Under the pieces are notes generated by a model. It was given only the letters and a program-made list of their open reading frames with translations, was not told where the DNA came from and did not search any database. A stretch of DNA of 45,091 bases from positions 1 to 45,091 of the forward strand of contig JAGRLT010000082.1 of the NCBI GenBank assembly GCA_020441665.1. Direction: 5' to 3'. Below, piece by piece: positions 29,400-43,234 of this stretch; position 1 is the first letter of the stretch, and every line of letters begins with the position of its first letter. This DNA comes from Nitratireductor sp. Lineage in GTDB: Bacteria > Pseudomonadota > Alphaproteobacteria > Rhizobiales > Rhizobiaceae. The translations under genes and the position numbers were made by a program.

Positions 29400-30872
29400 T
29401 CACGAATTGACGGCACCCATTGCGGGTTGCGCCAGAAGGTCCTCGCAAGCAGGCGTGTCCGGGCGCCGCATCTCGATCGTCGGCCAGATTTCCTCGATCC
29501 GGTCGGCGAGCGCTTCGACATTCTCGAAACCCGCATTCTGCGAGATCACCGACAGCCTGAGGACGCTGCGCCCTTTCCACTGGGCCGGGCGCACGAAGAG
29601 CCGCCGCTCGGCGTTCAGCCGGTCGGCCAGGGCCGAAATCTTCCAATGCTCATTGCGCCGGTCGCGGCAGCCGATGACGACCTGGTTGAGGTCGACCCGA
29701 TTCACGACCGTAAGCCCGTCATTCCGACGGACACGATCGGCCAGGTGCGCCGCCGCCGCGCAGTGGCGATCGACCAGCGTGGCGACGCCCCTGCGGCCGA
29801 GGCTGCGCAGGACCGCCCAGGCGGCGAAACCTTGCGCCCGTCTCGACAGGCCGGGCGTCAAGGAAGACGGATTGCGCCCGTCTTCTTCGTCGCAGTTGAG
29901 ATAGCCTGCCGTCTTCTGCATTGCGCGCCGATGAGCATCGCGATGCCGGACGATGGCAAAGCCGGATTCATAAGGCAGCTGTATCCATTTGTGTCCGTCG
30001 ACCGACCAGCTGTCGGCAAGCTCCGCCCCGACTGTCAGTCCCTTGCGGACCGCCGAAGCGCGCGCCCAGAGCCCGAAGGCGCCATCGACATGCATCCATG
30101 CACCATGGGACCGCGCCAGCGCCGCGATCTCGGCCAGGGGCTCGAACCCGCCGGAATTGATATGGCCGGCCTGGGCCAGGACGATCTTCGGCCCGCCGCT
30201 GCGGGCCATGGCATTGGCGAGATCGGCCGGGCGCATCAGCCCGGCGCTGTCGGACGAAAGTTTGTGGAAGTTCGCCTCGCCAAAGCCCAGTTGCCGCAGG
30301 GCGGCGTAATTGGTCACATGGGCGTCGTCGCTGAGGAAGATATGGACCTTCGGCGCGCCTTGAAGCCCCTCGGCCTCGACATCGTGGCCGAAGCGCCTCA
30401 GCACTTCGCCGCGCGCGGCGGCAAGGCCGACAAAGGCGGCCATGGTCGCGCCGCCGACAAAGCCGACCGAGCTTTCACGCGGCAGGTCGAGCAGTTCCAG
30501 CAGCCAGGCCTCGACCGCCTCCTCGGCAATCGCGGCGGCTGGCGAGGCCTGGTAGATCGCCGCATTCTGCCCCCAGGCCGAGGTCAGCCAGTCGGCGGCG
30601 ACACCGACCAGGTTCGACCCGCCCATGACCCAGGCATAGAAGTTCGGATCGGTATTGCCGACCAGCCCTGGTTCGGCCGCCGCGATCAGCGCGTCGATCA
30701 CCTCTGCGCCGGGAATGCCCTTGTCGGTCAGCGGCAGGCAGAACCGGTTCCTGAGCGCCGCCGCTGAGGCCGAGGGGCTGATCGGATGGGTTCCGCCTCG
30801 CCAGGCCCGCGCATAGCTCGCCGCGCGGGTCAGGACGTCGGTCGGCAGGGGATCGGTTCTGTTCGGTATCAT
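29400..30872 (-). CDS. Group II PLP-dependent decarboxylase
   Basis: 490 residues from ATG 30870-30872, with GGAGAGG nearby. Aspartate aminotransferase-fold decarboxylase: GGATMAAFVGLAAAR, histidine stacking residue in DDAHVTNYAAL (H185), D263 in HVDGAFG and the Schiff-base lysine in SVDGHKWIQLPY (K295). Relatives decarboxylate glutamate, aspartate, aromatic amino acids or cysteine sulfinate; substrate specificity is not readable here. Last gene of a five-gene operon (OsmC, flavin monooxygenase, OsmC, CysK::glutaredoxin, decarboxylase), 13 nt behind the fusion gene, so a sulfur-amino-acid substrate is an attractive guess. Confidence 0.87.
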   Translation of the reverse strand: MIPNRTDPLPTDVLTRAASYARAWRGGTHPISPSASAAALRNRFCLPLTDKGIPGAEVIDALIAAAEPGLVGNTDPNFYAWVMGGSNLVGVAADWLTSAWGQNAAIYQASPAAAIAEEAVEAWLLELLDLPRESSVGFVGGATMAAFVGLAAARGEVLRRFGHDVEAEGLQGAPKVHIFLSDDAHVTNYAALRQLGFGEANFHKLSSDSAGLMRPADLANAMARSGGPKIVLAQAGHINSGGFEPLAEIAALARSHGAWMHVDGAFGLWARASAVRKGLTVGAELADSWSVDGHKWIQLPYESGFAIVRHRDAHRRAMQKTAGYLNCDEEDGRNPSSLTPGLSRRAQGFAAWAVLRSLGRRGVATLVDRHCAAAAHLADRVRRNDGLTVVNRVDLNQVVIGCRDRRNEHWKISALADRLNAERRLFVRPAQWKGRSVLRLSVISQNAGFENVEALADRIEEIWPTIEMRRPDTPACEDLLAQPAMGAVNS

Positions 30873-30885
30873 GGTCCTCTCCACC

Positions 30886-32391
30886 CTACCTTGGATGCAT
30901 CCAGCTCGGCAGGAACCCGTACGGGTTGGCGGTCTTCGTCGCGTCGAAGGTGAGGCCGAGAGCGGCGAGCCTTTCGGCCATCGACCCGTCCTTGAAGGCG
31001 TCGAAGGTATCCGTCGCCCCGCCGATATGCTCGCCGCCGACAAAGATCTGCGGGATGGTCGGGGCGCCAGCCCTGACGCCCAGCGCGGCCCTGAGATCGC
31101 CGCCGAGATTGTCCTTCTGCATCGCCGCCGAGTCGAGTTCGATCGCATGATAGGGCAGGCCCGCGGCAGCAAAGAGCTTGCGCACCGACCAGCTGAATTC
31201 GCACCATTCAAGGACGAACATCACCACGGGATGCTGCTCCACGATGTCCGCGATCATCCTTGCGGCTTCGGGTTTGCAGGTCGGGGCCGCGGCAGGGGCG
31301 GCAGGGGCGGCCGGTGCCGGGCTGTCGAAACGCGCGCCGGGCGTCGATCGCGACAGTGCGGTCTCCTCCTCGCTCATATCTGCCTCGATCCCCTCGAACA
31401 GGACGGTGGACATATAGCGCTCGCCCGTATCGGGCAGCATGGCGACGATACGCGATCCCCTGGGGGCGGTTTTCGCAACCTCGAGCGCCGCGGCGAAGGT
31501 CGCGCTGCCGCTGATGCCGCAGAAGATGCCCTCCTGTGCCGCAAGGTCGCGCGCCGCCTGCAGGGCGGCGTTGCCGGCGACCGGCTGGAACTGGTCGATC
31601 GCACCGGCGTCGACGGCATCCTCGGCGAGCTTAGCGATGAAGTCCGGCGACCAGCCCTGCATCAGATGCGGGCGGAACGTCGGGTGGCTGGCCGGGCGGC
31701 CCGCCGCGTCGCGTTCCTGCCGGATTCCGCTTTGCAGCATCGGCACGTTGTCGGGCTCGGCCACGACAATGCGCGTTGCGGGGCATTCGGCGCGCAGGAC
31801 GCGGGAAACGCCCTTGAGCGTGCCGCCGGTGCCGAAGCCCGTTACCCAGTAGTCCGGGCCCTGCCCGCCAAAGGCATCGATGAGTTCCCGTGCGGTGGTG
31901 CGGGAATGCATGTCGGCATTGGCTTCGTTGTCGAACTGGCGGGCGAGAAACCAGCCATGTTCGCGGGCCAGTTCCTCGGCTTTGGCGAGCATCCCCGTGC
32001 CTTTCTGCGCGGCCGGCGTCAGCACGACCTTGGCGCCCAGGAAGCGCATCAGCTTGCGCCGCTCGACGCTGAAGCTTTCGGCCATGGTCACGACCAGCGG
32101 GTAGCCCTTGGCAGCGCAGACCAGCGCAAGACCGATCCCGGTATTGCCCGATGTCGCCTCGATCACGGTCTGGCCGGGCTTCAGCGCGCCGGAAGCCTCG
32201 GCTGCCTCGATGGCCGCCAGGGCGAAACGGTCCTTGACCGAACCGCCGGGATTGAACGCTTCAAGCTTGACGTAAAGCTCGATCCCCTCGGGTGCGAGCC
32301 GGTTGATGCGGACGACCGGCGTATCGCCGATCGTCTCGAGGATGGAGCCGCGCAGCAGCGGGGCGGCCTGGAGGGCGGGTTTCATGAGCAT
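30886..32391 (-). CDS. Cysteine synthase-glutaredoxin fusion protein
   Basis: 501 residues. Domain 1 (about 10-335) is a CysK/cystathionine-beta-synthase-type PLP enzyme: NPGGSVKDR with K53, ATSGNTG phosphate/substrate loop (79-85), GTGGTLKGV (187-195) and a GISGS cofactor loop. An alanine/proline-rich linker (about 350-375) leads to domain 2, a glutaredoxin (about 385-485) with active site C397-E-F-S400, a cis-proline loop TIP and a GG glutathione-binding turn. The fused pair suggests channelling of sulfide, persulfide or glutathione-bound sulfur into a beta-replacement reaction (inference). C-E-F-S is a monothiol-type variant of CPYC/CGFS. Start at ATG 32391; an in-frame ATG at 32385 is the alternative. 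Confidence 0.9.
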   Translation of the reverse strand: MLMKPALQAAPLLRGSILETIGDTPVVRINRLAPEGIELYVKLEAFNPGGSVKDRFALAAIEAAEASGALKPGQTVIEATSGNTGIGLALVCAAKGYPLVVTMAESFSVERRKLMRFLGAKVVLTPAAQKGTGMLAKAEELAREHGWFLARQFDNEANADMHSRTTARELIDAFGGQGPDYWVTGFGTGGTLKGVSRVLRAECPATRIVVAEPDNVPMLQSGIRQERDAAGRPASHPTFRPHLMQGWSPDFIAKLAEDAVDAGAIDQFQPVAGNAALQAARDLAAQEGIFCGISGSATFAAALEVAKTAPRGSRIVAMLPDTGERYMSTVLFEGIEADMSEEETALSRSTPGARFDSPAPAAPAAPAAAPTCKPEAARMIADIVEQHPVVMFVLEWCEFSWSVRKLFAAAGLPYHAIELDSAAMQKDNLGGDLRAALGVRAGAPTIPQIFVGGEHIGGATDTFDAFKDGSMAERLAALGLTFDATKTANPYGFLPSWMHPR

Positions 32392-32423
32392 GTCCTGATG
32401 TCCTTCTGGTTGGGTATGGGGGA

Positions 32424-32993
32424 TCACGCGGCCGGAATGGCTTGCGGGGCCGCGATCATGTGAACTTCGTGGTGAACGATCTGGGCGTCGCGCAGCGCGA
32501 GGTACCAGGGGTCCTGCGACAGGGCGCGATCGACGAGGCTTCGGACGGTGGCGCGGTCCTCGTCGGTGTCGATCTCGATCCGGATCCGCGATTCCAGCGG
32601 TGCTGCCGTGCGCGCACTCAGCCCCATCAGTGCCGCGTCGTCGAAATCGCATTCGATCCCGACATCGACCGAGCGGAATGCGAGCCCCTCGCGCGCCGCC
32701 ATCATCTTCACGCCGATGCCGACGCATCCGACGATGGCCGCACGGGCGAAGAAGCCCGGGCTCGGCCCGTTGGCGTCGCCGCCCATGCCGGGCCCCATGT
32801 CGAGGGTGGCGTGGAACCTGCCCTGCGCGACGTGGCAGGTCAGTCCCTCCTCGATCCGCCCGGTTGTCACCAGCGTGCTGCAGGCGGCATCGGGGTCCTG
32901 CCGCATCCGTTCGATCACGGCGGTCTGTGCCTGCCGGACCACGGCGTCCCGCGCGGGAAGCGCTCCGGCATCGATTTCAGGTTTCAGAGTCAT
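32424..32993 (-). CDS. OsmC-family protein, single cysteine conserved
   Basis: 189 residues with the OsmC/Ohr fold: N-terminal helix, then GRIEEGLTCHVAQGRFHATLDMGPGMGGD and the central helix with C90 (ARAAIVGCVGIGVKMMA) at the peroxidatic position. The second cysteine found in peroxide-reducing OsmC/Ohr (C-P-x-S/T) is missing: the segment reads LRDAQIVHHEV. Classical thiol peroxidase activity with intramolecular disulfide is therefore unlikely; it may use an external thiol such as the downstream glutaredoxin domain (inference). Lies 12 nt after the flavin monooxygenase gene and 32 nt before the fusion gene. Confidence 0.85.
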   Translation of the reverse strand: MTLKPEIDAGALPARDAVVRQAQTAVIERMRQDPDAACSTLVTTGRIEEGLTCHVAQGRFHATLDMGPGMGGDANGPSPGFFARAAIVGCVGIGVKMMAAREGLAFRSVDVGIECDFDDAALMGLSARTAAPLESRIRIEIDTDEDRATVRSLVDRALSQDPWYLALRDAQIVHHEVHMIAAPQAIPAA

Positions 32994-33005
32994 GGGCGTT
33001 TCCTT

Positions 33006-34241
33006 TCAGGCCGCCGAGCGGTCGCGGGTGCGGACAATGTGATCGGCAAGGGCGGCGGCATCGGCGCCGACGCCGTCGATGAGGGCCGAGTTGCGCCGTC
33101 TCTGGAAGGGCAGGCCGAGGACGTAGAGGCCCGGCGCGACGATGCCCTGGTCGTGGCACAGCCGACCCTTCCGGTCGAAGACCGGCATATGCAGCCAGCG
33201 ATAGTCGGGCCGGAATCCCGTTGCCCAGAGGATGGTCCGGACCTGCCCGCGGGCAAGGTCGAGCATCAGGCGAGGTGCTGCCGGACAGGCCGTTGCGGCA
33301 AAGCGTTCGACCGGGCCGAGCCCGCCGGTGCCGCGTTCCCCGGCCCAGGCGTCGAGCGTCTCGAGCAGCCGGTTCATCTTCAGGTCCGACAGCGCGCAAT
33401 GGTTGGCCAGCGCACCGGAGAAGAGCGCCGTCCCGTCGCGGATGGCGCTGAGGCGGCCGGTAATCTCGACCCCTTGCTCGGCAAGGCTGTTCAGGTCGCA
33501 GAAGCGCTGCGCGTGGGAGCCGACGAGCTGCAGTGAGGGAACCCGTCGCGCGCGCTCGATGTCGTCGATCTCGTCGGGCCGCTGGGTGTGAATGCCCGCC
33601 CGGTCCATCCACCACTGGATGTCGCGGCCTCGATAGTGGCGCGGCATGCGGATATGTTCGCCGGCGGAAAGGAACACCTCATGTCCGGCGGCCCGGATTT
33701 CGGCGGCCAGCTGGACGCCGCTCGCCGAAGCGCCGACGACGAGGACGCCGCCCGGCGCAAGCTGGCCGGGATTGCGGTAGTCGAGCGCGGTGATCTGTGC
33801 GATCTGCTGCGGCACGTCTGCCGCCAGCGCGGGGATGGCGGCGATGTTGCAGGCTCCGCTGGCCAGAACCAGCGCGTCGCAGTGCCAGTCGCCCCGGTCG
33901 GTGACGACGTCATAGCCGTTGCCCTGTGCCGTGACCGAGAGAACGCGGGTGCGCTCCTCGACCGGCGCCTTGCTGGCGGCGGCGTAGCCGGTGAGGAAAT
34001 CGATGACCTGCGGCATCGACATGAAGCCGTCCGGGTCGTCACCCCGATAGGCATGGCCGGGCAGCCGGCTTTGCCAGTTCGGGGTAAGCAGCCGCAGGCT
34101 GTCCCACCGCTCATGCCGCCAGGAATTCGCGATCTCTCCGCGCTCCAGCACGACATGGGGAAGGTTGCGGTCCGACAGGGAGCGGCTCATCGCGAGGCCG
34201 GCCTGGCCGGCGCCGATAATGAGGGTTGCGATGTGTTTCAC
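33006..34241 (-). CDS. Flavin-containing monooxygenase-like oxidoreductase (CzcO type)
   Basis: 411 residues with an N-terminal FAD site GAGQAG (10-15), the NSWRHERWDSLRLLTPNW block typical of FMO/CzcO-like proteins, a second dinucleotide site VVGASASGVQLAAE around residue 175 for NADPH, and the ATGFRPDY motif near residue 350. It should oxidise a nucleophilic N or S atom using NADPH and O2. In the operon it sits between two OsmC genes and upstream of CysK::Grx and a decarboxylase, so an organosulfur substrate is plausible but unproven. No signal peptide. Confidence 0.87.
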   Translation of the reverse strand: MKHIATLIIGAGQAGLAMSRSLSDRNLPHVVLERGEIANSWRHERWDSLRLLTPNWQSRLPGHAYRGDDPDGFMSMPQVIDFLTGYAAASKAPVEERTRVLSVTAQGNGYDVVTDRGDWHCDALVLASGACNIAAIPALAADVPQQIAQITALDYRNPGQLAPGGVLVVGASASGVQLAAEIRAAGHEVFLSAGEHIRMPRHYRGRDIQWWMDRAGIHTQRPDEIDDIERARRVPSLQLVGSHAQRFCDLNSLAEQGVEITGRLSAIRDGTALFSGALANHCALSDLKMNRLLETLDAWAGERGTGGLGPVERFAATACPAAPRLMLDLARGQVRTILWATGFRPDYRWLHMPVFDRKGRLCHDQGIVAPGLYVLGLPFQRRRNSALIDGVGADAAALADHIVRTRDRSAA

Positions 34242-34286
34242 GGTGCTTGCTCCTGTCGGACCGGCCAGAACCTGAAAGGCTCCGGG

Positions 34287-34853
34287 TCAGGCAACCGTCA
34301 CGTTGACGGCGGTCGGGTTGGTGAGGATGTCGAATACGGCCGAGCGCTTCTGCGACTGGGCAACCAGCGCGCGGATTTCCTCGGCAGTCGCGTCGGCGTC
34401 GATCTCGAAGCGGACGCGGATGGCGGAAAAGCCGTTGCGGACCTCCGGGTCCATGCCGAGAATGCCGCGCACGTCGATGTCGCCTTCAACCATGGCGCGC
34501 ATGCGGTGCAGCTGGATGCCGCGATGCTGGGCGACGGCGGCCACGCCGCCGGTAAGGCAGCTTGCGAGGGCGGCCAGCACGATCTCCGGCGGGGTCGGGG
34601 CGCGATCGGCGGCGGCAAAGACTTCCGGATGATCGCTGTCGATGCGGAATGTCTCCTTGCGCTCCTGATCCTGGCCGAGGCCGAAATAGCCGTTGATCGT
34701 ATTGGTGCTGTAGGTGCCTTCCTTCCAGTCGCAGGTGCTGCCGAAGGTGAAGGCTGCTGCCTCGGGCATCTGTTCGAATGCGCCGCGCGCACCGATCAGG
34801 GCTTCGGTATTGACGCCGTTCGAGATGGGCTTGGTCATCGTGGAGGTCTGCAT
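34287..34853 (-). CDS. OsmC-family protein, first gene of the redox operon
   Basis: 188 residues, OsmC fold. C99 lies in the central helix (IVLAALASCLTGGVAAVAQHRG), equivalent to the peroxidatic cysteine. The second cysteine is replaced: KRSAVFDILTNPTAVNV has serine where CPVxD-type cysteine is expected. The same loss is seen in the OsmC paralogue at 32424, so both differ from peroxide reductases and could act as acyl-thiol or adduct-handling proteins. C41 is extra. First gene of the minus-strand operon, divergent from the winged-helix/TPR regulator. Confidence 0.85.
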   Translation of the reverse strand: MQTSTMTKPISNGVNTEALIGARGAFEQMPEAAAFTFGSTCDWKEGTYSTNTINGYFGLGQDQERKETFRIDSDHPEVFAAADRAPTPPEIVLAALASCLTGGVAAVAQHRGIQLHRMRAMVEGDIDVRGILGMDPEVRNGFSAIRVRFEIDADATAEEIRALVAQSQKRSAVFDILTNPTAVNVTVA

Positions 34854-35236
34854 CTTTTGTTCCTTTCAGGGGGGGTCGTTGGTCTGTTCGTGTGGGGTTG
34901 AGGGAGTGGCCGGGGGGTCGGCCGGGGATGGCGGGCCATGCGGCCCGGCGCATTCAGGGATGCCGTCCGCCCTGCCGGGGCTCGGCGAAGAACGGGCTGC
35001 GTACCGCGTACCGGTGCCGGGAGGGTTCGTTCGGGACCAGTCCCGAAAGCCCGTCAAAGCCGCTGCCATGGCTGGGCCCGCGGCCTGTTTTCATCCTGTC
35101 GCTCATGTCGCTTTCCTTCTTCATTCCGAACCCTTTCGGGCTGATGGCGCACCAATACAGCCAGCTTTTGCTTGCGGTCTTGAGGGGAGGTTGGGTAATT
35201 TGTGGGGAAAGTCTGAGTTTCGATGAGGAAGGCTTC
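34854..35236. other. Intergenic control region between the redox operon and its regulator
   Basis: A 383-nt gap without a convincing gene. G-rich runs occur at 34868-34935. In-frame extensions of the regulator through 35144 (ATG) or further upstream exist but lack ribosome sites and family similarity. I see no clear -35/-10 pair or strong dyad. The promoter of the OsmC operon and the operator of the divergent regulator should lie here. Confidence 0.5.
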
Positions 35237-36811
35237 TTGCACTACGCGTTTGACGGCTTCGCGCTTGACATGAACCGCGGCGATCTGCGCCGTGGCGATA
35301 CCGTATTGCCGGTCGAACCGATGGCCTATGCTGTGCTGGGCCATCTGGTGCAGAACGCCGAACGCCTGGTTGCGAAGGACGAACTGGTCGAAAAGGTCTG
35401 GGACGGGCGCTTCATCTCGGATGCGGCGGTTTCGATCGTGATCAAGTCGCTGCGCCGGGTTCTTGGCGATGATGGCAAGCAGCAGCGCTATATCCGCACG
35501 GTCCATGGCCGGGGGTTCCGGTTCGTCGCGGATGTGCGGATCGTGGCGCCTGCGGCAATGGCTGCCGACCCGCATGCGCAGGATGCGGCACAGGCCGACG
35601 GCACGCTCCCGGTCGATCGGAAACCTTCGATCGCGGTTCTGCCCTTTACCCTGATCGGCGGCTCGCAAGCCTATTCCGCCATCGCCGACGCGATTCCCGG
35701 CGAACTGATCTCCACCTTGTCACGCCTGCGCTGGCTCAAGGTCGTGGCACGCGGATCGAGCTTTCGCTTCCGCCCGCCCTTGCAGGATTTCGAGACGATC
35801 CGCTCCGCCCTCGGCGTGACCTATGTCCTGTCGGGCGAGGTGGAGGTCCTGGATCCCGCATTCGGCATCGTGGTGGAACTTGTCGATGCGCGAACATCTC
35901 AGGTTGTCTGGGGCGACCGGTTGTCGGGCAAGATCGACGATGTCCACGAAATGCGCGAGCGGATCGTGGCGCTGATCATCTCGGCGATGGAACTGCACAT
36001 CCCGCAACACGAGGCGCAGCTTGCGCGGCTGCGGGTGCCGTCGGGGCTCGATGCCTGGTCGCTCTATCACATCGGCCTACAGCACGCCTTCCGCTTCAAT
36101 CGGGCCGACAACGCCCTTGCGAGCGACTATTTCCAGCGTGCGACCGAGCTCGATCCGCTCTTCGCCCGCGCCCATGCCGCGCAGTCCTTCGTCAGTTTCC
36201 AGGCTGCCTTCCTGCGCTATTCGCCGGATCACGCGCAGGCGATCGAGGACGCACGGCGCCACGCGGAACGGAGCGTGGAGCTCGACCCCATGGACCCGTT
36301 TGCGAATTTCAACTTCGGGCGCGCCCACTGGCTCAGGGGGGATCCGGCGGCCGGGCAATCCTGGCTGGAACGCTCCTGCAGCCTGAGCCCGAGCTTCGCG
36401 CAGGGTTTCTATGCGCATGGCTGGGCCGATATCATGGCGGGCGACGGACAGGCCGCGCTCGAAAACCTCGAGAAATCGATCAACCTCAGCCCGCTCGATC
36501 CGTTCCGATACGCGATGCTGTCGGCGAAGGGCATGGCCCATTTTCATGTGGACGAGACAGACCAGGCGGCCCATTGGGCCGATCAGGGCGCGCGAACCCC
36601 GGGGGCGCACTATCTGATCACCACATTCGCCGCGGCGATCAACGAGGCCACGGGCCATCACGATCAGGCGCGCTACTGGGCGCTGGAGGCGAAGGCGCGC
36701 CGCGGGGACGCCTCGATCGAGGCATTCTTCACCGCCTTTCCGTTCAGGAACGAGGCCAAGCGAAAGGCCTTGTCCGATGCCCTTACCGCTCTGGGGTTCC
36801 CTGAAAGGTAA
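35237..36811 (+). CDS. CadC-like winged-helix regulator with TolB-like and TPR domains
   Basis: 524 residues from TTG 35237, chosen because GAGGAAGG lies 4-5 nt upstream and because the wing domain starts right there (HYAFDGFALDMNRGDLRRGD). An upstream ATG at 35144 adds 31 residues of no family character. Trans_reg_C-type winged helix at about 1-97 (recognition helix SDAAVSIVIKSLRRVLGD), then the beta-rich domain found in CadC/adenylate-cyclase-like proteins (KPSIAVLPFTLIGG... to about 255), then TPR repeats to the end. No membrane helix separates the parts, so it is cytoplasmic. Divergent from the OsmC operon, which it likely controls; the signal is unknown. Confidence 0.85.
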   Translation: MHYAFDGFALDMNRGDLRRGDTVLPVEPMAYAVLGHLVQNAERLVAKDELVEKVWDGRFISDAAVSIVIKSLRRVLGDDGKQQRYIRTVHGRGFRFVADVRIVAPAAMAADPHAQDAAQADGTLPVDRKPSIAVLPFTLIGGSQAYSAIADAIPGELISTLSRLRWLKVVARGSSFRFRPPLQDFETIRSALGVTYVLSGEVEVLDPAFGIVVELVDARTSQVVWGDRLSGKIDDVHEMRERIVALIISAMELHIPQHEAQLARLRVPSGLDAWSLYHIGLQHAFRFNRADNALASDYFQRATELDPLFARAHAAQSFVSFQAAFLRYSPDHAQAIEDARRHAERSVELDPMDPFANFNFGRAHWLRGDPAAGQSWLERSCSLSPSFAQGFYAHGWADIMAGDGQAALENLEKSINLSPLDPFRYAMLSAKGMAHFHVDETDQAAHWADQGARTPGAHYLITTFAAAINEATGHHDQARYWALEAKARRGDASIEAFFTAFPFRNEAKRKALSDALTALGFPER

Positions 36812-36927: not shown

Positions 36928-36988
36928 GAAGCAATTGAAACACGGAGGGCGCATCCGCGAAACAACGGCGAAACGTGCGGGCGATAGT
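36928..36988 (+). promoter_or_regulatory. GAAACA promoter module, copy A (44-residue ORF)
   Basis: GAAGCA-ATT-GAAACA (36928-36942), N16, GAAACA (36959-36964), N5, GAAACG (36970-36975), N7, GATAGT (36983-36988), then 39 nt to the ATG at 37028. The same arrangement occurs at three other promoters in this window with identical internal spacing. Confidence 0.75.
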
Positions 36989-37027
36989 CTCCCTTTGTCA
37001 CGAATTCAAACCTCAAGGAAAACGAAC

Positions 37028-37162
37028 ATGACAAAGCAGAACACCTTCACCCCGGTTCGCGCCATGGTCCTGCTGCCGGTGAAATCCGATGGCAAGGAAC
37101 GTGCCCGCGTCTTCGCGCATGGCAATGCCGCCCTGGTCTGGGAAAAGAACTTCAAGAACTGA
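37028..37162 (+). CDS. Small 44-residue protein of unknown function
   Basis: Not a recognised family. MTKQNTFTPVRAMVLL at the start, then a basic, hydrophilic stretch ending VWEKNFKN; no cysteine, no signal peptide. Real by context: AAGGA stands 9 nt before the ATG, a repeated promoter module lies 100 nt upstream, and a near-perfect intrinsic terminator follows 25 nt after the stop. A monocistronic, probably strongly induced microprotein, perhaps stress related like the DUF1127 protein that faces it. Confidence 0.7.
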   Translation: MTKQNTFTPVRAMVLLPVKSDGKERARVFAHGNAALVWEKNFKN

Positions 37163-37187
37163 CCAGTACCCCTCTTGCTCCCGTCGA

Positions 37188-37216
37188 ACGCCCGCATCTG
37201 ATGCGGGCGTTTTTTT
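37188..37216 (+). terminator. Strong intrinsic terminator
   Basis: ACGCCCGCAT (37188-37197) and ATGCGGGCGT (37201-37210) form a perfect 10-bp stem with a 3-nt loop, followed by T6. Ends the 44-residue gene transcript. Confidence 0.93.
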
Positions 37217-37250
37217 GTGCCCGCCGTCCCGCGTGGCGACAAGCAGAACA

Positions 37251-37276
37251 AGAAAAACCCGCCGTTTCCGGCGGGT
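37251..37276 (-). terminator. Intrinsic terminator of the DUF1127 gene
   Basis: On the minus strand, CCCGCCG/CGGCGGG arms with a GAAA loop (37258-37275) are followed by TTTTTCT (complement of 37251-37257). Confidence 0.88.
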
Positions 37277-37305
37277 GGAGTGGAGGGAGAGGAGTCCTGG
37301 ACGTG

Positions 37306-37467
37306 TCAGAAAATGGGCATGTTCTTGCGCCGGAACGCCACTTCCTGGCGCGTCGTCCCGATGTCGCGGAAGATATCATCGCCGCCCTGCAGCAGCATTT
37401 CGTATTCGCGGCGATGACGGGCGCGCTCGTCGGCGCGGCGAAGGGCATTCTTGATGGTGGTGATCAT
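37306..37467 (-). CDS. DUF1127 (YjiS-like) small protein
   Basis: 53 residues from ATG 37465-37467 with TGGAG 9 nt upstream. The arginine-rich DUF1127 core is clear: ALRRADERARHRREYEMLLQGGDDIFRDIGTTRQEVAFRRK, including the DIG-x-T-R signature. Established for related proteins in Rhizobiales and Rhodobacterales: small DUF1127 proteins bind RNA or influence phosphate, carbon or stress regulation; the specific role here is unknown. It has its own terminator and its own copy of the GAAACA promoter module, and is divergent from the alpha/beta hydrolase gene. Confidence 0.88.
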   Translation of the reverse strand: MITTIKNALRRADERARHRREYEMLLQGGDDIFRDIGTTRQEVAFRRKNMPIF

Positions 37468-37501
37468 GGGGCTACTCCAGGGTTGGTTTGTCGATGGACG
37501 G

Positions 37502-37564
37502 ACAATCGCAACCCTTCGTTTCAGTGCGATTTCGCCGGACGGGGAACCCTGTTTCATTTGTTTC
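37502..37564 (-). promoter_or_regulatory. GAAACA promoter module, copy B (DUF1127 gene)
   Basis: Read on the minus strand from 37564: GAAACA-AAT-GAAACA (37564-37550), N16, GAAATC (37533-37528), N5, GAAACG (37522-37517), N9, GATTGT (37507-37502). The start codon is 97 nt from the module's first base. Confidence 0.75.
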
Positions 37565-37575
37565 TCCGCCCCGCT

Positions 37576-37637
37576 GAAACAGTTGAAACAATTGGAGGGC
37601 TGTCGGGACACGCGTCTGAAACGCGCCGGTCGTAGCA
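37576..37637 (+). promoter_or_regulatory. GAAACA promoter module, copy C (alpha/beta hydrolase)
   Basis: GAAACA-GTT-GAAACA (37576-37590), N16, GACACG (37607-37612), N5, GAAACG (37618-37623), N8, GTAGCA (37632-37637); start codon at 37679, 103 nt from the first base. Back to back with copy B, separated by 11 nt. Confidence 0.75.
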
Positions 37638-37678
37638 AAAACCCAAGCAAAATCAGAACGAACCCGGAAAGTGCCCCA

Positions 37679-38518
37679 ATGCCCTACCTGAACGCAAACC
37701 AGACAGTTGTTCATTACCGCGAAGACGGCGACGGCGTTCCCGTCATTGCCATCCATGGCTCGGCCTCCAGCAGCCAGCAGTGGGAAAGCCTGACCGGCTA
37801 CATGTCCGACCGCTCGCGCGTCATCAGGCCCGACCTGCCCGGATACGGCAAGACGCCGGCGTTGAAAGGTCCGAGGTCGCTGGCCGCGATTGCCGCCACG
37901 CTGGTTCCGCTTCTTGAGGAAATGGGCGAGCCGGTTCACCTTGTCGGCCATTCCTTCGGCGGGGCGGTGGCGCTGAAACTCGCCAGCCTGCGCCCTGACC
38001 TGGTCCGCAGCCTGGCCGTCATGGAACCTGCCGCGTTTCACCTGCTGGAGCCGAATTCGCCGCTGCTCGATGCGATCATGTCCGTCGAGAAGGCCATGCG
38101 GCGCAGCCTGCGGCACGGCGAGGGGGATGACGCCATGCGAGGCTTCATCGATTTCTGGAACGGCGATGGCGCATGGCGGCGTTCGAGTGCCGGCCTTCGG
38201 CAGAAACTCGCTCTGCTGGCAGACCAGGTGATCGCGGATTTCGACGCCGTCATGGCGGAATCAGCAGGTCTCGCCAACTACGCGGCCATTCGCTGCCCGG
38301 TGCTCGCGCTGACCGGCCGCCAGTCGCCGCGGGTCGCACAGGCTCTGACCGCAAGGCTGGCCGGCGCGATGCCGTCGGCAAAGCTCGCATCTCTTCCCGG
38401 TGCCGGCCATATGGCGCCGCTTACCGACCCGCATCTCGTCGACCCGATGATCGCCGCCCATGTTTTCGCCAGGCCCGTCTCGGCCGAGCGCACCGGCGAT
38501 GCGAAACTGGCTGCCTAG
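37679..38518 (+). CDS. Alpha/beta hydrolase upstream of the globin signalling operon
   Basis: 279 residues from ATG 37679. Standard alpha/beta-hydrolase: HGSASSSQQW oxyanion region, nucleophile elbow GHSFGGAVALKLA, acid around LALTGRQSPRV and the histidine in GAGHMAPLT. No signal peptide, so cytoplasmic. Substrate unknown; relatives cleave esters, lactones or C-C bonds. It carries a copy of the GAAACA module in its promoter and precedes the truncated globin gene by 170 nt on the same strand, so transcription from this promoter may continue into the globin-cyclase-kinase operon. Confidence 0.87.
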   Translation: MPYLNANQTVVHYREDGDGVPVIAIHGSASSSQQWESLTGYMSDRSRVIRPDLPGYGKTPALKGPRSLAAIAATLVPLLEEMGEPVHLVGHSFGGAVALKLASLRPDLVRSLAVMEPAAFHLLEPNSPLLDAIMSVEKAMRRSLRHGEGDDAMRGFIDFWNGDGAWRRSSAGLRQKLALLADQVIADFDAVMAESAGLANYAAIRCPVLALTGRQSPRVAQALTARLAGAMPSAKLASLPGAGHMAPLTDPHLVDPMIAAHVFARPVSAERTGDAKLAA

Positions 38519-38585
38519 AAAAGGAAATCCGATTGGCAAGAAGTCCGATCTCACCCATGTAATGTCGCCCGGAATGGCAGTTGGG

Positions 38586-38614
38586 CTTGCCCGCTGCCGC
38601 AGGGGTGGGGCAAG
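38586..38614 (+). terminator. Weak stem-loop between hydrolase and globin genes
   Basis: CTTGCCC (38586-38592) and GGGCAAG (38608-38614) pair around a 15-nt loop. No proper U-tract follows (AATTACCTTTTG), so it could be a leaky terminator or an RNA-processing site. It matters for whether the globin operon shares the hydrolase promoter. Confidence 0.35.
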
Positions 38615-38688
38615 AATTACCTTTTGTGGCGGAAACAATCCGTGCGCGAAGGCGGGTGTTCGGGCATATAGGGCCAGGAGTTGCAATC

Positions 38689-39045
38689 ATGGAAAAGAAC
38701 CTGTTTCAGAAATACGGAGGCTTCTCGAAGATCAGCCGGATCGTGCTCGACTTCTATGAGCGCCTGCTCGACGACGACGATGTGGGCCCCTTCTTCGACG
38801 AGGTCGACATGGCGCGCATTGTCGACCACCAGACCAAATTCATCTCGTCGCTGCTCGGCGGACCCACCTCCTACACCGACGATCAGATCTCGAAGCTGCA
38901 CAGGCATCTGACGATCAACACCGGGCATTTCGATGTGCTGGCGCGGATCCTGCGCGAAACGCTGGCCGATCACGGTATGGAGCCCGACGACGTCGATACG
39001 GTCGTTGCCGCTCTGGATTCCCGTCGCGGCCTGGTTGTGAGCTGA
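38689..39045 (+). CDS. Group 1 truncated haemoglobin (TrHbN type)
   Basis: 118 residues from ATG 38689; CAGGAG is 8 nt upstream. The 2-on-2 globin pattern is complete: YGGFSKISRIVLDFYERLL (phenylalanine-tyrosine at B9-B10, Y23 as distal ligand-stabilising residue), FFDEVDMARIVDHQTKFISSLLGGPTSY, and the proximal haem histidine H71 in SKLHRHLTINTGHFDVL. Binds O2, NO or CO through haem; family roles are NO detoxification or gas sensing. It is followed after 3 nt by a nucleotidyl cyclase and then a histidine kinase and a response regulator, so a sensory role as haem subunit for that pathway is more likely than detoxification (inference). Confidence 0.93.
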   Translation: MEKNLFQKYGGFSKISRIVLDFYERLLDDDDVGPFFDEVDMARIVDHQTKFISSLLGGPTSYTDDQISKLHRHLTINTGHFDVLARILRETLADHGMEPDDVDTVVAALDSRRGLVVS

Positions 39046-39048
39046 CCG

Positions 39049-40107
39049 ATGTCGATCGCCGCAATCAACGAACAGCTGCTGCGTGCCATCGGTGTCGGGG
39101 TCGCCCTGCTCGACATCGATGACCTCAAGTTCCAGTTCTTCAACGACACCTTCGTCGAATGGTTCGGCGAGCCCGACTCCGACGCCCGCCTGACCGATCT
39201 CTTCACGGCCATGGATGCCGAGGTGCTCCGCCGCGGTCTTGCCGAGGGTGGCCGGTTCGCGACCGAAACGACTTTCAAGCTCCGCAGACGAACCATGACG
39301 GTGGCGATGGAGTTCAACCGGGCGCCCGATGCGGGCGGCAAGATCGCGGTCGTCGTTTGTCAGAACATCACCCGGATCAAGGAGCTGGAATCCATGATCG
39401 ATTCCTATTCGATGATGGTCGAGCGCAACACGCGCGAGATCAAACGCGAAAAGGAACAGGTCGAGAAACTGCTCCTCAACATGATGCCGCGTTCGGTCTA
39501 TGAGGAGTACAAGACCTTCGGCGTCGTTACCCCGCGCCTGTACGACCCGGTTTCGGTCCTGACACTCGATTTCTGCGGCTTCTCGGATCTCGTCGCGACG
39601 GTCGATCCGGGCGTCATCGTCAGTGAATTGAACGACCTTTACAGTGCCTTCGATCGCATTGGCGAACAGTTCGGCTGCGAAAGGATCAAGACGATCGGCG
39701 ACGCCTACATAACGGTCGCCGGCATGCCCGACCCATCGCCCGACCACGTGCAGTCCGTGGCGAACGCGGCAATCCGTTTCCTGAGATATATCGCTCATCG
39801 CAATGAAAGCCATCCGATCAAATGGCAGTGCCGCATCGGCCTTTCCGCCGGTTCGGTGATTGGATCGGTCGTCGGCGTACAGAAATACATCTATGATGTC
39901 TTCGGGCCGGCCGTGACCCGGGCGCTCCGCATCCGCGCCCATGCCGAGCCGATGACCATTTGCGGCGATGCCGAAATTGCCGGGTCGCTCAACGGCAAGT
40001 TCCGCAAAACCGGCCTGGGTGGGCAGGACATCGGCGGCGAGAGGATCGAGATCGTCCGGATCGAGGCCGAAACCGAGCCGGCGAGGGCAGTCGGAATCCA
40101 GTCATGA
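39049..40107 (+). CDS. Class III adenylate/guanylate cyclase with PAS-like N-domain
   Basis: 352 residues. PAS-like sensory domain (about 5-108), a coiled-coil signalling helix (about 108-145), then the class III cyclase domain. Metal aspartates D174 (LTLDFCGFSDL) and D218 (KTIGDAYITVAG) are present. Purine-selecting residues K214 and D283 (YIYDVFG) are the adenine type, so cAMP is the predicted product. The transition-state arginine is present (R294, RALRI), but the paired asparagine of G-x-x-V-N is threonine (T290, GPAVTRALR), which may lower or alter activity. Sits between the globin gene (3-nt gap) and the hybrid kinase (4-nt overlap), so gas-responsive cyclic nucleotide synthesis is the obvious hypothesis. 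Confidence 0.9.
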   Translation: MSIAAINEQLLRAIGVGVALLDIDDLKFQFFNDTFVEWFGEPDSDARLTDLFTAMDAEVLRRGLAEGGRFATETTFKLRRRTMTVAMEFNRAPDAGGKIAVVVCQNITRIKELESMIDSYSMMVERNTREIKREKEQVEKLLLNMMPRSVYEEYKTFGVVTPRLYDPVSVLTLDFCGFSDLVATVDPGVIVSELNDLYSAFDRIGEQFGCERIKTIGDAYITVAGMPDPSPDHVQSVANAAIRFLRYIAHRNESHPIKWQCRIGLSAGSVIGSVVGVQKYIYDVFGPAVTRALRIRAHAEPMTICGDAEIAGSLNGKFRKTGLGGQDIGGERIEIVRIEAETEPARAVGIQS

Positions 40108-42044
40108 CCGCCAGCCGCAAGACATCCCCGGGCGAAAAGGCGAGCCAATCCTCTGGCGGCATGTCCGGGGCGCCGGATCTGTTTCGCGAAGTCATGGAGG
40201 CGATGTCGGAAGGGCTTGCCCTTTTTGACGAGGATACCTGCCTGCTGCGCTGTAATTCCAGCTTCCGCGCGATGAACCCGTTGATCGCCGACGTTCTCGA
40301 GACGGGCATCGAATGGGAACTCATCCTGCGCGAGATGGCGATGCGCAATGTGATGACGGCGAAAGCGATCGAGCGCCTGCGATGGATGGAAAACCGGCTC
40401 CATACCGGCTGGAAGCTGTCGTCGCTGCTCGAAATCGATTTCACCAATGGCGCTAGATACGAGTTTTCGGTGCGCCCGACGCCGGTCGGCGGCTTCCTGA
40501 TCACCCAGTCCGATATCTCCCAGCGCAAGCAGTATGAGGACAATCAGCGCGAGGCCGATATTCTTCTGCGCGAGGTTCTCGAAGCCTGCCCGGCGAATGT
40601 GATCATGTCGCGCATCGGCGACGGGCACATCATCTACCGCTCGCCGGCGGCAACCGAACTGCTCGGTACCTCGCACAATTCGCACACCCATTTCGCCAGC
40701 CGCGAGGAACGCGCCGATTTCGTGACGGCATTGCTGCCGAACGGCCGCGTCGACGACATGCTGGTGACGGGCCTGAGACCCGACGGATCGACCTTCCCCT
40801 GCTCGATATCGGCGCGGGTCATCGAATATCGCGACGAAGAGGTGATCGTATCGAGCACGGTCGACATCTCGCGCGAAGTCGAGATGCAGAAAACGCTCGT
40901 CGAGCAGCGCGAGCAGATCTTCCAGTCCGAGAAGATGTCGGCCTTGGGCGAACTGCTGGCCGGTGTCGCCCATGAGCTCAACAACCCCCTGTCGGTCGTC
41001 GTCGGTCATGCCCTGATGTTGCGCGAGGAGACATCCGACCCGGACGCCTTGCGCCGGCTGGAGAAGATTTCCGATGCCGCCGAGCGTTGCGCGAAGATTG
41101 TCAAGTCTTTCCTCGCCATGGCCCGCCAGCAACCTGTCCGGCTGGCGCCGATCGGACTGTACGAGACGGTGGAGACCGCGGTCGAAGCGCTGCGCAACGG
41201 CGCAAGCGGCCTCAAGGTTGCGGTCGACATCCAGTTCAAGGGCGGTCTGCCCTGGACCCTGGGCGATGCCGACCAGCTGGTCCAGGTGATTATCAACCTG
41301 GTGACGAATGCGGAACAGGCGATCGTTTCCTCCGGTGTCGGAGACGGCATCGCCATCACCGCCCGCCACGACCGCGCGGCCAACATGATCGAGATGCGCG
41401 TGTCCGACAATGGTCCGGGCATTGCTCCCGAAATCCGCAGCCGGATTTTCGATCCATTGTTCACGACCAAGGATGTCGGCCAGGGCACGGGCATAGGTCT
41501 CGCATTCTGCCATCGCGTGATCACCTCCCACAACGGCCAGATCCGCGTCGAACCCGCCTCGGGGCACGGCGCGATCTTTGTCGTCAGACTGCCGATCGCG
41601 ACCGATGCACCCGGCGCGGAGCCCGATACCGAGACCGAGAACCGCAAGCAGGCGCCGGCGCGCATTCTTGTGGTCGACGACGAGCCCGACGTGGCCGACC
41701 TGATCCGCGAGATCCTGCAACGCGACGGCTTCAACGTCGATCACGCCGGTTCGGCGGAAGAGGCGCTGGCGCTGGCGCGCGAATATGCCTATGCGCTGGT
41801 TCTCAGCGATCTGAACATGCCCGGCATGGGCGGCCGCGGGTTTTACGAGATCATTGCCCGCGAATTACCGGAACTGGCCAGACGCATCGGCTTCGTGACG
41901 GGTGACACGATGAGCCCGTCGGCGCGTGGGTTCCTCGACAGCGCCAACCGGCCGTTTCTGGAAAAGCCCATCGCGCCGACAGAAGTGCGCTTGCTTGTAA
42001 GGCAGATGCTTGATGCGGTTTCCGACAAAGGAGGCAGGCCATGA
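40104..42044 (+). CDS. Hybrid histidine kinase with PAS domains and C-terminal receiver
   Basis: 646 residues from the ATG overlapping the cyclase stop. Two PAS domains (about 22-140, the PAS-7 type with REMAMRNVMTAKAIERLRW, and 152-265), then HisKA with H290 in GVAHELNNPLS, the HATPase domain (N402 in LVTNAEQAI, DNGPGI 435-440, TTKDVGQGTGIGLA) and a receiver domain (518-636) with phosphoacceptor D569 and K621. No membrane helix: a soluble cytoplasmic sensor. Autophosphorylated H290 can pass phosphate to D569 and on to the OmpR-family regulator encoded next (4-nt overlap), although a phosphotransfer domain is not seen. Signal likely redox or gas linked, given the globin gene. Confidence 0.93.
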   Translation: MTASRKTSPGEKASQSSGGMSGAPDLFREVMEAMSEGLALFDEDTCLLRCNSSFRAMNPLIADVLETGIEWELILREMAMRNVMTAKAIERLRWMENRLHTGWKLSSLLEIDFTNGARYEFSVRPTPVGGFLITQSDISQRKQYEDNQREADILLREVLEACPANVIMSRIGDGHIIYRSPAATELLGTSHNSHTHFASREERADFVTALLPNGRVDDMLVTGLRPDGSTFPCSISARVIEYRDEEVIVSSTVDISREVEMQKTLVEQREQIFQSEKMSALGELLAGVAHELNNPLSVVVGHALMLREETSDPDALRRLEKISDAAERCAKIVKSFLAMARQQPVRLAPIGLYETVETAVEALRNGASGLKVAVDIQFKGGLPWTLGDADQLVQVIINLVTNAEQAIVSSGVGDGIAITARHDRAANMIEMRVSDNGPGIAPEIRSRIFDPLFTTKDVGQGTGIGLAFCHRVITSHNGQIRVEPASGHGAIFVVRLPIATDAPGAEPDTETENRKQAPARILVVDDEPDVADLIREILQRDGFNVDHAGSAEEALALAREYAYALVLSDLNMPGMGGRGFYEIIARELPELARRIGFVTGDTMSPSARGFLDSANRPFLEKPIAPTEVRLLVRQMLDAVSDKGGRP

Positions 42045-42760
42045 ACACCACCAGCCAGACGATCCTGGTCTGCGACGATGAGGTCGATGTTCGCGAGATG
42101 CTCGCCGAATATCTTGCCAAACGCAGCTTCAATGTCGTCACCGCGGGCAATGCCGACGAACTGCGCGTAAGGCTGGAAAGCGACGGGCCGGATCTGATCC
42201 TGCTCGACATCAACATGCCGGGAGAAAACGGTTTGTCGGTGCTGCGCAGCCTGAACGGCGAGGCGGGCCCGCCGGTCATCATGCTGACGGCGGCCGCAGA
42301 CGTCGTCGACCGGATCATCGGCCTCGAAATGGGGGCGGATGACTATCTCGCAAAGCCGGTGGACCTGCGGGAGCTCGAGGCGCGGATCAAGGCCGTGCTG
42401 CGGCGACAGACCGTCGCCCGGCAGGAGGCCGACGAGGCGATCGATGACGGCCGCAAGCGCTTTCGCTTCGGCAGGACCTGGCTCGACATCGAGGCGGCAA
42501 AGTTGACCGAGGAGGACGGCACCGAGATTCCGCTCACCTCGATGGAATTCAACCTGCTCAAGCTGTTTGCCCGCAACCGTGGCCGGGTGCTCAATCGAGA
42601 CCAGATCCTCGAAGGCGCCCATGACCGGTCCTGGGACCCGTTCGACCGCAGCATCGACATCCGGATTTCACGCATTCGCCGCAAGATCGAGGCAAATCCG
42701 CAGAAGCCGACGACGATCAGGACCGTGCGCGGGATCGGCTACATCTACGACGAGCAATAG
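42041..42760 (+). CDS. OmpR/PhoB-family response regulator
   Basis: 239 residues. Receiver domain 1-120 with acidic pocket D12/D13, phosphoacceptor D56 (LILLDINMPG), T83 and K105 (DDYLAKPVD), followed by a winged-helix DNA-binding domain (about 137-235; SMEFNLLKLFARNRGRVLNRDQILEGAHDRSWDPFDRSIDIRISRIRRKIE). Binds tandem direct repeats as a dimer, as the family does. Cognate of the hybrid kinase (ATG overlaps its stop by 4 nt). The GAAACA module upstream of neighbouring genes contains direct repeats that such a regulator could recognise, which makes it a candidate for its own regulon (inference). Last gene of the operon; a hairpin follows at 42812. Confidence 0.94.
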   Translation: MNTTSQTILVCDDEVDVREMLAEYLAKRSFNVVTAGNADELRVRLESDGPDLILLDINMPGENGLSVLRSLNGEAGPPVIMLTAAADVVDRIIGLEMGADDYLAKPVDLRELEARIKAVLRRQTVARQEADEAIDDGRKRFRFGRTWLDIEAAKLTEEDGTEIPLTSMEFNLLKLFARNRGRVLNRDQILEGAHDRSWDPFDRSIDIRISRIRRKIEANPQKPTTIRTVRGIGYIYDEQ

Positions 42761-42811
42761 GCCGGCCGGCCTGGTTCCGGTTGTTTGGCTGGGCCGATAT
42801 GCTTCAAATAG

Positions 42812-42846
42812 AAGGGGCCCACGGCGTCGTGCCATGGGCCTTCCTT
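42812..42846. terminator. Hairpin between response regulator and convergent small gene
   Basis: GGCCCA (42816-42821) and TGGGCC (42835-42840) with an inner GGC/GCC pairing; flanking AAGG/CCTT extend the stem. The gap separates convergent transcripts, and the T-run is short on both sides. Confidence 0.6.
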
Positions 42847-42859
42847 GCTGGGTCTGCGC

Positions 42860-43132
42860 TTAGTAGGAGTAGCGGTCGACACAGTGGCTGTATTTGCGCC
42901 ACCAGTAGTGCGAGCCGGTGTGACGGGCCTTCCGCTTGAGATAGTGGCACTCTTCGACCGGGTCGTAGCCGCCGACATAGAAGCCGAAGTGCGGGCGATA
43001 ATACCGGTGCTTGTTGTAGTGATTGTTGTAGTTCTGGTTGTGCTGACCGCCCTTGTTGCCGGCTTCAGCGGAGACTGCGCCGAGCAGGGTCGATGCGGTC
43101 AGGACCAGAGCTGCGATCGTTTTTGCTTTCAT
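42860..43132 (-). CDS. Small secreted protein rich in Tyr/His/Trp with two cysteines
   Basis: 90 residues from ATG 43130-43132; AAAGGA is upstream, and a longer frame to 43183 is not needed. Signal peptide KAKTIAALVLTASTLLGAVSAEA, then an Asn/His/Tyr-rich segment (NQNYNNHYNKHRYYRPHF) and a C-terminal motif EECHYLKRKARHTGSHYWWRKYSHC with two cysteines 21 residues apart that could form a disulfide. This C-terminal pattern recurs in small rhizobial exported proteins, but no function is known to me. Convergent to the response-regulator gene and equipped with its own GAAACA promoter module. Confidence 0.8.
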   Translation of the reverse strand: MKAKTIAALVLTASTLLGAVSAEAGNKGGQHNQNYNNHYNKHRYYRPHFGFYVGGYDPVEECHYLKRKARHTGSHYWWRKYSHCVDRYSY

Positions 43133-43171
43133 TGGATTTTCCTTTCTTGGGGTTCGTTTTCCAATGAGCGC

Positions 43172-43234
43172 CTTATCGGTCATGCACGTTTCAATGCGTT
43201 CTCGCCACGCGGGTTGAAATGCTTCGATTGTTTC
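43172..43234 (-). promoter_or_regulatory. GAAACA promoter module, copy D (small secreted protein)
   Basis: Read on the minus strand from 43234: GAAACA-ATC-GAAGCA (43234-43220), N16, GAGAAC (43203-43198), N5, GAAACG (43192-43187), N9, GATAAG (43177-43172); the start codon is 102 nt from the first base. Confidence 0.75.

Follow-up and report, generated by a model that had tools for sequence, protein, structure and literature searches.

A four-box promoter module in Nitratireductor and other Alphaproteobacteria and the OmpR-type two-component system that probably reads it

The stretch of Nitratireductor sp. DNA considered here (contig JAGRLT010000082.1 of assembly GCA_020441665.1, 45,091 nucleotides, all of it referred to as the window) contains four copies of one promoter module, in which two pairs of GAAAC-like boxes are followed by a -10-like hexamer. 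Judging by their sequences, many relatives carry the same module, so it is not a local oddity. It goes together with the gene of an OmpR-type response regulator, and its -10 sits at a fixed position. Very probably, this comparison indicates, the module marks a small set of target genes of that regulator. It is likely that the module serves as promoter and operator in a small regulon controlled by the two-component system whose genes lie between modules 3 and 4; its regulator would bind both pairs of boxes and activate transcription. An earlier sequence-only reading had proposed that the copies are one promoter module recognised by a regulator of the OmpR family, and the comparative evidence points there. 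Beyond that reading, the comparison adds a likely regulator, conservation of the module across Alphaproteobacteria, a -10 at a fixed position, and target genes that recur as a set in relatives.

Architecture of the module and its uniqueness in the genome

All four copies were found again with the coordinates, strands, boxes, and spacings that the sequence-only reading had assigned to them (Table 1). The boxes begin at offsets 0, 9, 31, and 42 from the first base of every module, and the four copies span 6.3 kb. Modules 1 to 4 begin 100, 97, 103, and 102 nucleotides (nt) before their start codons, in agreement with the 97-103 nt claimed earlier. By eye, the bases between the boxes appear dissimilar among the four copies; only the boxes and the -10 are common. 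One detail has to be revised: a last gap of 7-9 nt had been described between the boxes and a GATAGT-like hexamer, but this gap is instead constant. The -10-like hexamer occupies offset 57-62, with an A at offset 58 in all four copies, and the same position is fixed in relatives.

In the draft genome of the window's own organism (G000; 3,343,299 bases, 173 contigs, 93.65% complete), the strict pattern has four matches, all of them in the window, and the backward pattern has none. Allowing up to 3 mismatches adds 2 unconvincing places, against 10 control matches. When variable gaps are allowed, the pattern matches nowhere but in the cluster, where it finds modules 1 to 3 (module 3 twice), with no control matches; it misses module 4, which is without the TGAAAC that it demands. 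A held-out matrix built from 221 training sites, excluding the window and loci L018-L044, L063, L095, and L098, gives modules 1 to 4 scores of 37.8, 41.8, 43.6, and 36.9 bits, while the next-best place in the window scores 5.2 bits and the best of 30 mononucleotide shuffles 9.6; the hold-out is imperfect in that the training sites were originally collected with the window included.

Conservation of the module in relatives

The relatives were collected with a query other than the motif. Searching the genome collection with the cyclase that lies between modules 3 and 4 yielded 105 relatives, and the 80 best of these (L043-L122) were retained. With every locus scored by a matrix from whose training it was excluded, 78 of the 80 alphaproteobacterial cyclase loci show a module of at least 25 bits, the same number as without this exclusion. 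An equal frequency of the module in coding sequence or shuffles, which the sequence-only reading had named as telling against it, was looked for and not seen. None of the 80 reversed loci reaches 25 bits, and none of 229 modules in the 80 loci touches a gene body mapped by homology to window proteins, these mapped bodies making up 21% of the DNA, with other genes unmapped.

The leave-one-locus-out test is cleaner than a simple matrix count. A 49-column matrix was applied to 106 sources, namely the window and a set of 105 loci made up of the 80 cyclase loci and 25 regulator loci, some overlapping. It finds 261 non-overlapping matches in 84 sources, with a top reversed score of 23.7, and the ratio of 261 to 2 reversed matches is partly a matter of construction because the threshold was set to leave exactly two. 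The full pattern has 37 matches in 28 of the 105 loci and none in reversed sequence.

Of the two module-free cyclase loci, L060 lies on a 6.5-kb contig, and its genome holds the regulator together with a module (at most 1 mismatch) about 2.4 kb from it. The other, L117 from Sneathiella, belongs to a genome without a module at up to 2 mismatches. The regulator is absent or partial in 13 of the 80 loci; a search of all 13 genomes locates it elsewhere in 11, and the genomes of L117 and L053 have none at E 1e-50. Among 20 named genomes, 19 contain the module at up to 2 mismatches, with 0-7 matches each and none in the controls; in L061, the one without a match, the matrix detects two modules in the locus. 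The regulon is thus small, and in some genomes it is spread over several contigs. Modules recur in front of different gene families, in several orders.

With at most 1 mismatch, a scan of the own genome and 40 relatives finds one match each in 6 of the 40 others, which is background because the same set yields 5 control matches. The regulator was sought in 24 of these 40 relatives (G001-G005 at E 1e-50, G006-G024 at E 1e-60) and found in none of the 24. Six genomes of the same genus, G001-G006, have neither the regulator nor the module at these thresholds; thus, the cluster is patchy even within the genus.

Co-occurrence with the regulator gene

Of the window proteins, mapped across the 80 loci, the response regulator is the conserved one that carries a DNA-binding domain; its PF00072 and PF00486 matches both exceed their cut-offs, the domain layout of the OmpR/PhoB family. 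In a family sample of 121 genomes, own included, the regulator is found at E 1e-60 in 23, the cyclase at E 1e-60 in 5, and the module (at most 2 mismatches) in 16. The module is present in 12 of the 23 genomes with the regulator vs 4 of the 98 without it (Fisher p 1.4e-7). In six cyclase-free genomes (G135, G072, G053, G085, G125, and G124) the regulator has a module no more than about 5 kb away, and the 20-kb region contains no globin match.

The 20-kb regions round the regulator in the 22 other family genomes contain modules of at least 25 bits, within about 10 kb, in 10 cases by the held-out matrix and in 11 by the full matrix, G136 being the weak one. Sorted by identity of the regulator to that of the window, modules occur in 5 of 5 genomes above 60%, in 5 of 8 at 53-59% (G125, G085, G072, G124, and G053, but not G136, G044, and G049), and in 0 of 9 at 52% or below. 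Second regulator copies in G041 and G106 (60%) have no module nearby. In 11 control regions taken from six of these genomes, nothing reaches 15 bits with the full matrix, and the best score with the held-out matrix is 16.0; one reversed match of 16.3 bits occurs in L200. Eight plasmid records contain the regulator. Three were examined, and Novosphingobium pentaromativorans US6-1 pLA3 and an Aminobacter plasmid carry 4 modules each at 15 bits or more; the third, from Ruegeria TM1040, carries none.

In a regulator tree of 58 rows (OmpR and 57 of the 97 regulators collected), the 33 rows of the largest group (support 89/80) and the 4 rows of an Aminobacter-like group all come from module-bearing loci. 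The module label changes 5 times on the tree against a shuffled mean of 13.5, and none of 500 shuffles is as low; one of the rows labelled module-bearing, L069_3530, represents an additional regulator from the same locus. All 19 regulators shown from the core and Aminobacter-like groups share the winged-helix stretch SIDIRISR. In a sister clade (5 shown) the recognition helix contains SIDLRISR, and other regulators vary. Near the sister-clade regulator, GATAC-N4-GATAC pairs occur three times in L206 (4994, 9622, and 13211), once each in L204 (7071) and L200 (11658), and not in L182 or L205; the background is 0 in the 11 control regions and 3 in the 80 core loci, with 3 reversed. It is possible that these pairs and SIDLRISR represent a co-evolved variant code, which is offered as a lead and not as a result.

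Spacing classes and the position of the -10

Spacing was counted in 102 sources (the window, the 80 cyclase loci, L181, L183, and L200-L218), leaving out L182 (no module), L184-L187, and L199 (same contig as L044). With the pairs scored separately, the offset from box 1 to box 3 is 31 at 186 sites, 30 at 71, and 21 at 25, with other values seen 1-5 times each. Upstream pairs without a partner number 90; the reversed control gives 2 with a partner and 52 without. Because some of L200-L218 repeat cyclase loci, distinct sequences were counted for the -10. An A stands 16 nt after the start of box 4 in 94% of 181 distinct sites of class 31, 95% of 69 of class 30, and 71% of 24 of class 21. Since this position is kept in all three classes, the downstream pair and the -10 form a rigid core, relative to which the upstream pair moves by 1 nt or by about one DNA turn. 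The 11-nt pair highlighted by the sequence-only reading is the promoter-proximal one, at a fixed distance from the -10.

In class 30, 53 of the 71 sites lie in front of a hybrid kinase gene, and in class 21, 7 of the 12 sites listed (of 24) lie 110-122 nt before an OsmC match. This natural series of spacings (21, 30, and 31, at a constant -10) already amounts to an experiment on how helical phasing affects activation from the -35 position.

Proposed mechanism

In the mechanism proposed here, the PAS hybrid kinase would phosphorylate the OmpR-type regulator, which would then bind as two dimers, the upstream pair of boxes (offsets 0 and 9) taking one and the downstream pair (31 and 42) the other. 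The latter pair would replace the -35 element and would end about 10 nt before the weak -10 (57-62). From the -35 position, the bound regulator would then recruit RNA polymerase. PhoB-type activators recruit RNA polymerase in that way. The predicted output in the window is the 44-residue protein, the 53-residue protein, the hydrolase, and the 90-residue protein, with possible read-through from the hydrolase gene into those of the globin, the cyclase, the kinase, and the regulator.

Contrary evidence and alternative readings

Several observations weigh against control of the module by the local regulator. A spacing of 9 nt between boxes is unusual for OmpR-type dimers, and in the window no module lies directly in front of the globin, cyclase, kinase, and regulator genes. 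Among the 22 other regulator genomes, 12 have no 25-bit module nearby (their regulators are 48-53% identical in 11 cases and 59% in one), and Ruegeria sp. TM1040, with a 63% regulator, shows no module in 12 kb on each side. Four genomes have a module match without a regulator at E 1e-60 (G051, G052, G079, and G098). G052 contains a 45% homologue about 2 kb from one match and G051 has 43-45% homologues on other contigs, while in G079 (two module-like matches) and G098 there is no regulator even at E 1e-50. The draft genome of L053 likewise has modules without a regulator at that threshold; its contig ends inside the kinase gene, and therefore the regulator may lie in a gap. Finally, the module-bearing G124 and G053 have regulators that fall in a distant group of the tree, which counts against a single origin, and that carry different helices (SIDVRVTR and SIDIRVTR, respectively).

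Among the alternatives, it is unlikely that two proteins share the module, the downstream pair being bound by the response regulator and the upstream pair by a second protein. The two pairs do differ in spacing (9 vs 11), the upstream one shifts by 1 nt or by about one helical turn, and a winged-helix, TPR-like protein is encoded next door. However, this protein is found in 2 of the 80 loci (the mapping covered window proteins only and could have missed another DNA-binding gene common to the loci), and the box sequences of both pairs are alike.

Quite unlikely, too, is binding by some other widely conserved OmpR-type regulator, such as CenR, with the local regulator a mere neighbour. CenR sites of Rhodobacter sphaeroides are TGA-N8-TGA direct repeats (PMC9275681), and the downstream pair reads nGA-N8-TGA; the modules of L053 and G079 found without a regulator would also fit. 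The distribution of the module argues the other way, although no search for CenR itself was made: it tracks the local regulator in the family sample, a dependence that a broadly conserved binder would not create, and it is missing along with that regulator from six genomes of the same genus. The low number of matches per genome among the 20 named genomes points in the same direction.

An alternative sigma factor promoter, suggested by the fixed position relative to the start codons in the window and by the -10-like element that follows, is very unlikely, though no shared sigma gene was sought, given that an array of four boxes spanning 47 nt, the upstream pair of which is movable, is unlike a two-element sigma promoter and that, at 254 distinct sites from the relatives and the window, the -10 keeps the sigma-70-like A2 (offset 58, 74%) and T6 (offset 62, 41%). 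A dispersed repeat or a set of recent promoter duplications without regulatory meaning, to which the clustering of four copies might point, is hardly credible and is largely refuted by boxes that are conserved without the bases between them, by the empty mapped gene bodies, and by recurrence before different gene families in several orders.

Genes around the modules

Control by the local regulator is proposed for four genes of the window that lie behind modules, and the genes from the hydrolase to the 90-residue protein fill the interval between modules 3 and 4 (Table 1). The 53-residue protein has homologues in L043 (60%), L044 (57%), and L112 (46%), each with a module close upstream. Its earlier label as a DUF1127 protein lacks confirmation in Pfam, since the window protein has no PF06568 match and the 60% identical Oricola protein reaches only E 0.61 to DUF1127. 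Homologues of the 90-residue protein stand behind modules in L053, L062, and L066.

Table 1. Modules and genes of the window, in window coordinates
Feature	Position	Strand	Elements	Remarks
Module 1	36928..36990	+	boxes 36928-36933, 36937-36942, 36959-36964, 36970-36975; -10-like TAGTCT 36985-36990	upstream of 44-residue open reading frame (ORF)
Module 2	37502..37564	-	box starts 37564, 37555, 37533, 37522 (descending); -10-like GATTGT 37507-37502	upstream of 53-residue protein
Module 3	37576..37638	+	boxes 37576-37581, 37585-37590, 37607-37612, 37618-37623; -10-like TAGCAA 37633-37638	upstream of alpha/beta hydrolase
Module 4	43172..43234	-	box starts 43234, 43225, 43203, 43192 (descending); -10-like GATAAG 43177-43172	upstream of 90-residue protein
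Winged-helix, TPR-like protein	34892-36811	+	Trans_reg_C; weak TPR matches	between OsmC row and module 1
44-residue ORF	37028..37162	+		behind module 1; no Pfam match at E 0.01
53-residue small protein	37306..37467	-		behind module 2
Alpha/beta hydrolase	37679..38518	+		behind module 3
Truncated haemoglobin	38689..39045	+	Bac_globin	pLA3 counterpart annotated group 1 truncated hemoglobin
Cyclase	39049..40107	+	adenylate/guanylate cyclase catalytic domain; weak N-terminal PAS match	query that fetched the 80 loci
Hybrid histidine kinase	40104..42044	+	PAS-PAS-HisKA-HATPase-REC	no membrane segment noticed by eye
OmpR-type response regulator	42041..42760	+	REC + Trans_reg_C	candidate module binder
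90-residue protein	42860..43132	-	signal-like N-terminus (by eye)	behind module 4

Before module 1, a minus-strand row (29400-34853) encodes, from 34853 down, OsmC, a flavin-dependent oxidoreductase (MSMEG_0569-like), a second OsmC, a CysK-glutaredoxin fusion, and a pyridoxal phosphate (PLP) decarboxylase. No module lies in front of this row in the window genome. On Novosphingobium pLA3, a similar set (OsmC, two NAD(P)/FAD oxidoreductases, a PLP enzyme, and a PLP decarboxylase) flanks the regulator, and modules stand before some of its members. The winged-helix, TPR-like protein was rejected as the regulator because it has homologues in so few of the cyclase loci (L069, 29%; L094, 45%); possibly it is a newcomer.

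The truncated haemoglobin and cyclase genes form a conserved pair: in 80 of 80 loci the former ends at most 60 nt before the latter.

Target genes and possible function

Behind the 261 modules, the commonest gene types are the hybrid kinase (54) and, second, the alpha/beta hydrolase (44), followed by OsmC (27), FAD oxidoreductase (14), globin (13), truncated globin (13), the CysK-glutaredoxin fusion (12), a YgjV-like membrane protein (11), and DUF1127 (8), with 33 singletons. These tallies, like the accompanying distances, come from a rough ORF picker and are approximate because it chose wrong ORFs for three of the four window sites. The gene types suggest that the circuit answers a reactive gas or a thiol-reactive compound. 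In Agrobacterium, DUF1127 proteins bind the sensor kinase PhoR (PMC12501420); by analogy, the small module-driven proteins might feed back on kinases.

A broader picture is possible, though doubtful. It would be a previously undescribed alphaproteobacterial stress circuit with two outputs. The haemoglobin and the PAS cyclase would sense a gas or reactive species and make a cyclic nucleotide. The kinase and regulator would use a helically phased code of four boxes to induce globins, OsmC-type and glutaredoxin-fused thiol enzymes, flavin oxidoreductases, hydrolases, and small proteins. The SIDLRISR sister clade would read a shifted GATAC-N4-GATAC code. More immediately, an unstudied two-component system, present in Rhizobiales, Rhodobacterales, and sphingomonad records, gains a readable DNA code and a target list, and regulon membership therefore becomes predictable from sequence. 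The truncated haemoglobin and the cyclase, as constant neighbours, become testable as partners.

Comparison with known systems

The sequence-only reading knew of no described regulon with this signature. The literature searched, which covers few subscription papers, likewise yielded no description of the code or the cluster. One mechanistic parallel is class II activation of the PhoB type, in which 11-nt repeats, placed about 10 nt upstream of the -10, replace the -35 element. This arrangement is seen in the downstream pair of the module; unlike PhoB-type sites, however, the module uses GAAAC-like boxes and has an extra upstream pair at 9-nt spacing.

ChvI is another OmpR-type response regulator, conserved, like the regulator here, in Alphaproteobacteria. 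Its sites are reported as TTGC-N3-GCAA for Caulobacter and as N-GCC-N8-GCC for S. meliloti (PMC9731502). By eye, neither TTGC-N3-GCAA nor GCC-N8-GCC matches the module consensus, and the ChvI regulon was rejected as an identity for the module.

Enterobacterial OmpR is the best NCBIfam match of the window regulator (E 6.8e-64), although the score of 215.5 bits falls short of the OmpR equivalog cut-off of 331 (NF007005). Unlike the enterobacterial system, the one in the window has a partner kinase that is PAS-bearing and hybrid, box spacings of 9 and 11, and other targets. A Salmonella OmpR motif, given as TGTWACAW (PMC3586657), resembles box 1; the second and third bases of that box vary among relatives.

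CenR of Rhodobacter sphaeroides is essential, reads its direct repeats upstream of promoters, and has 59 candidate target units (PMC9275681). Like CenR, the regulator studied here is an alphaproteobacterial member of the OmpR family with putative direct-repeat sites; unlike what is described for CenR, the module proposed for it is patchy, has four boxes, and occurs 0-7 times per genome in 20 genomes. In a comparison of motifs only, the upstream pair of the module reads TGA-N6-TGA, whereas the downstream pair comes close to the TGA-N8-TGA of CenR.

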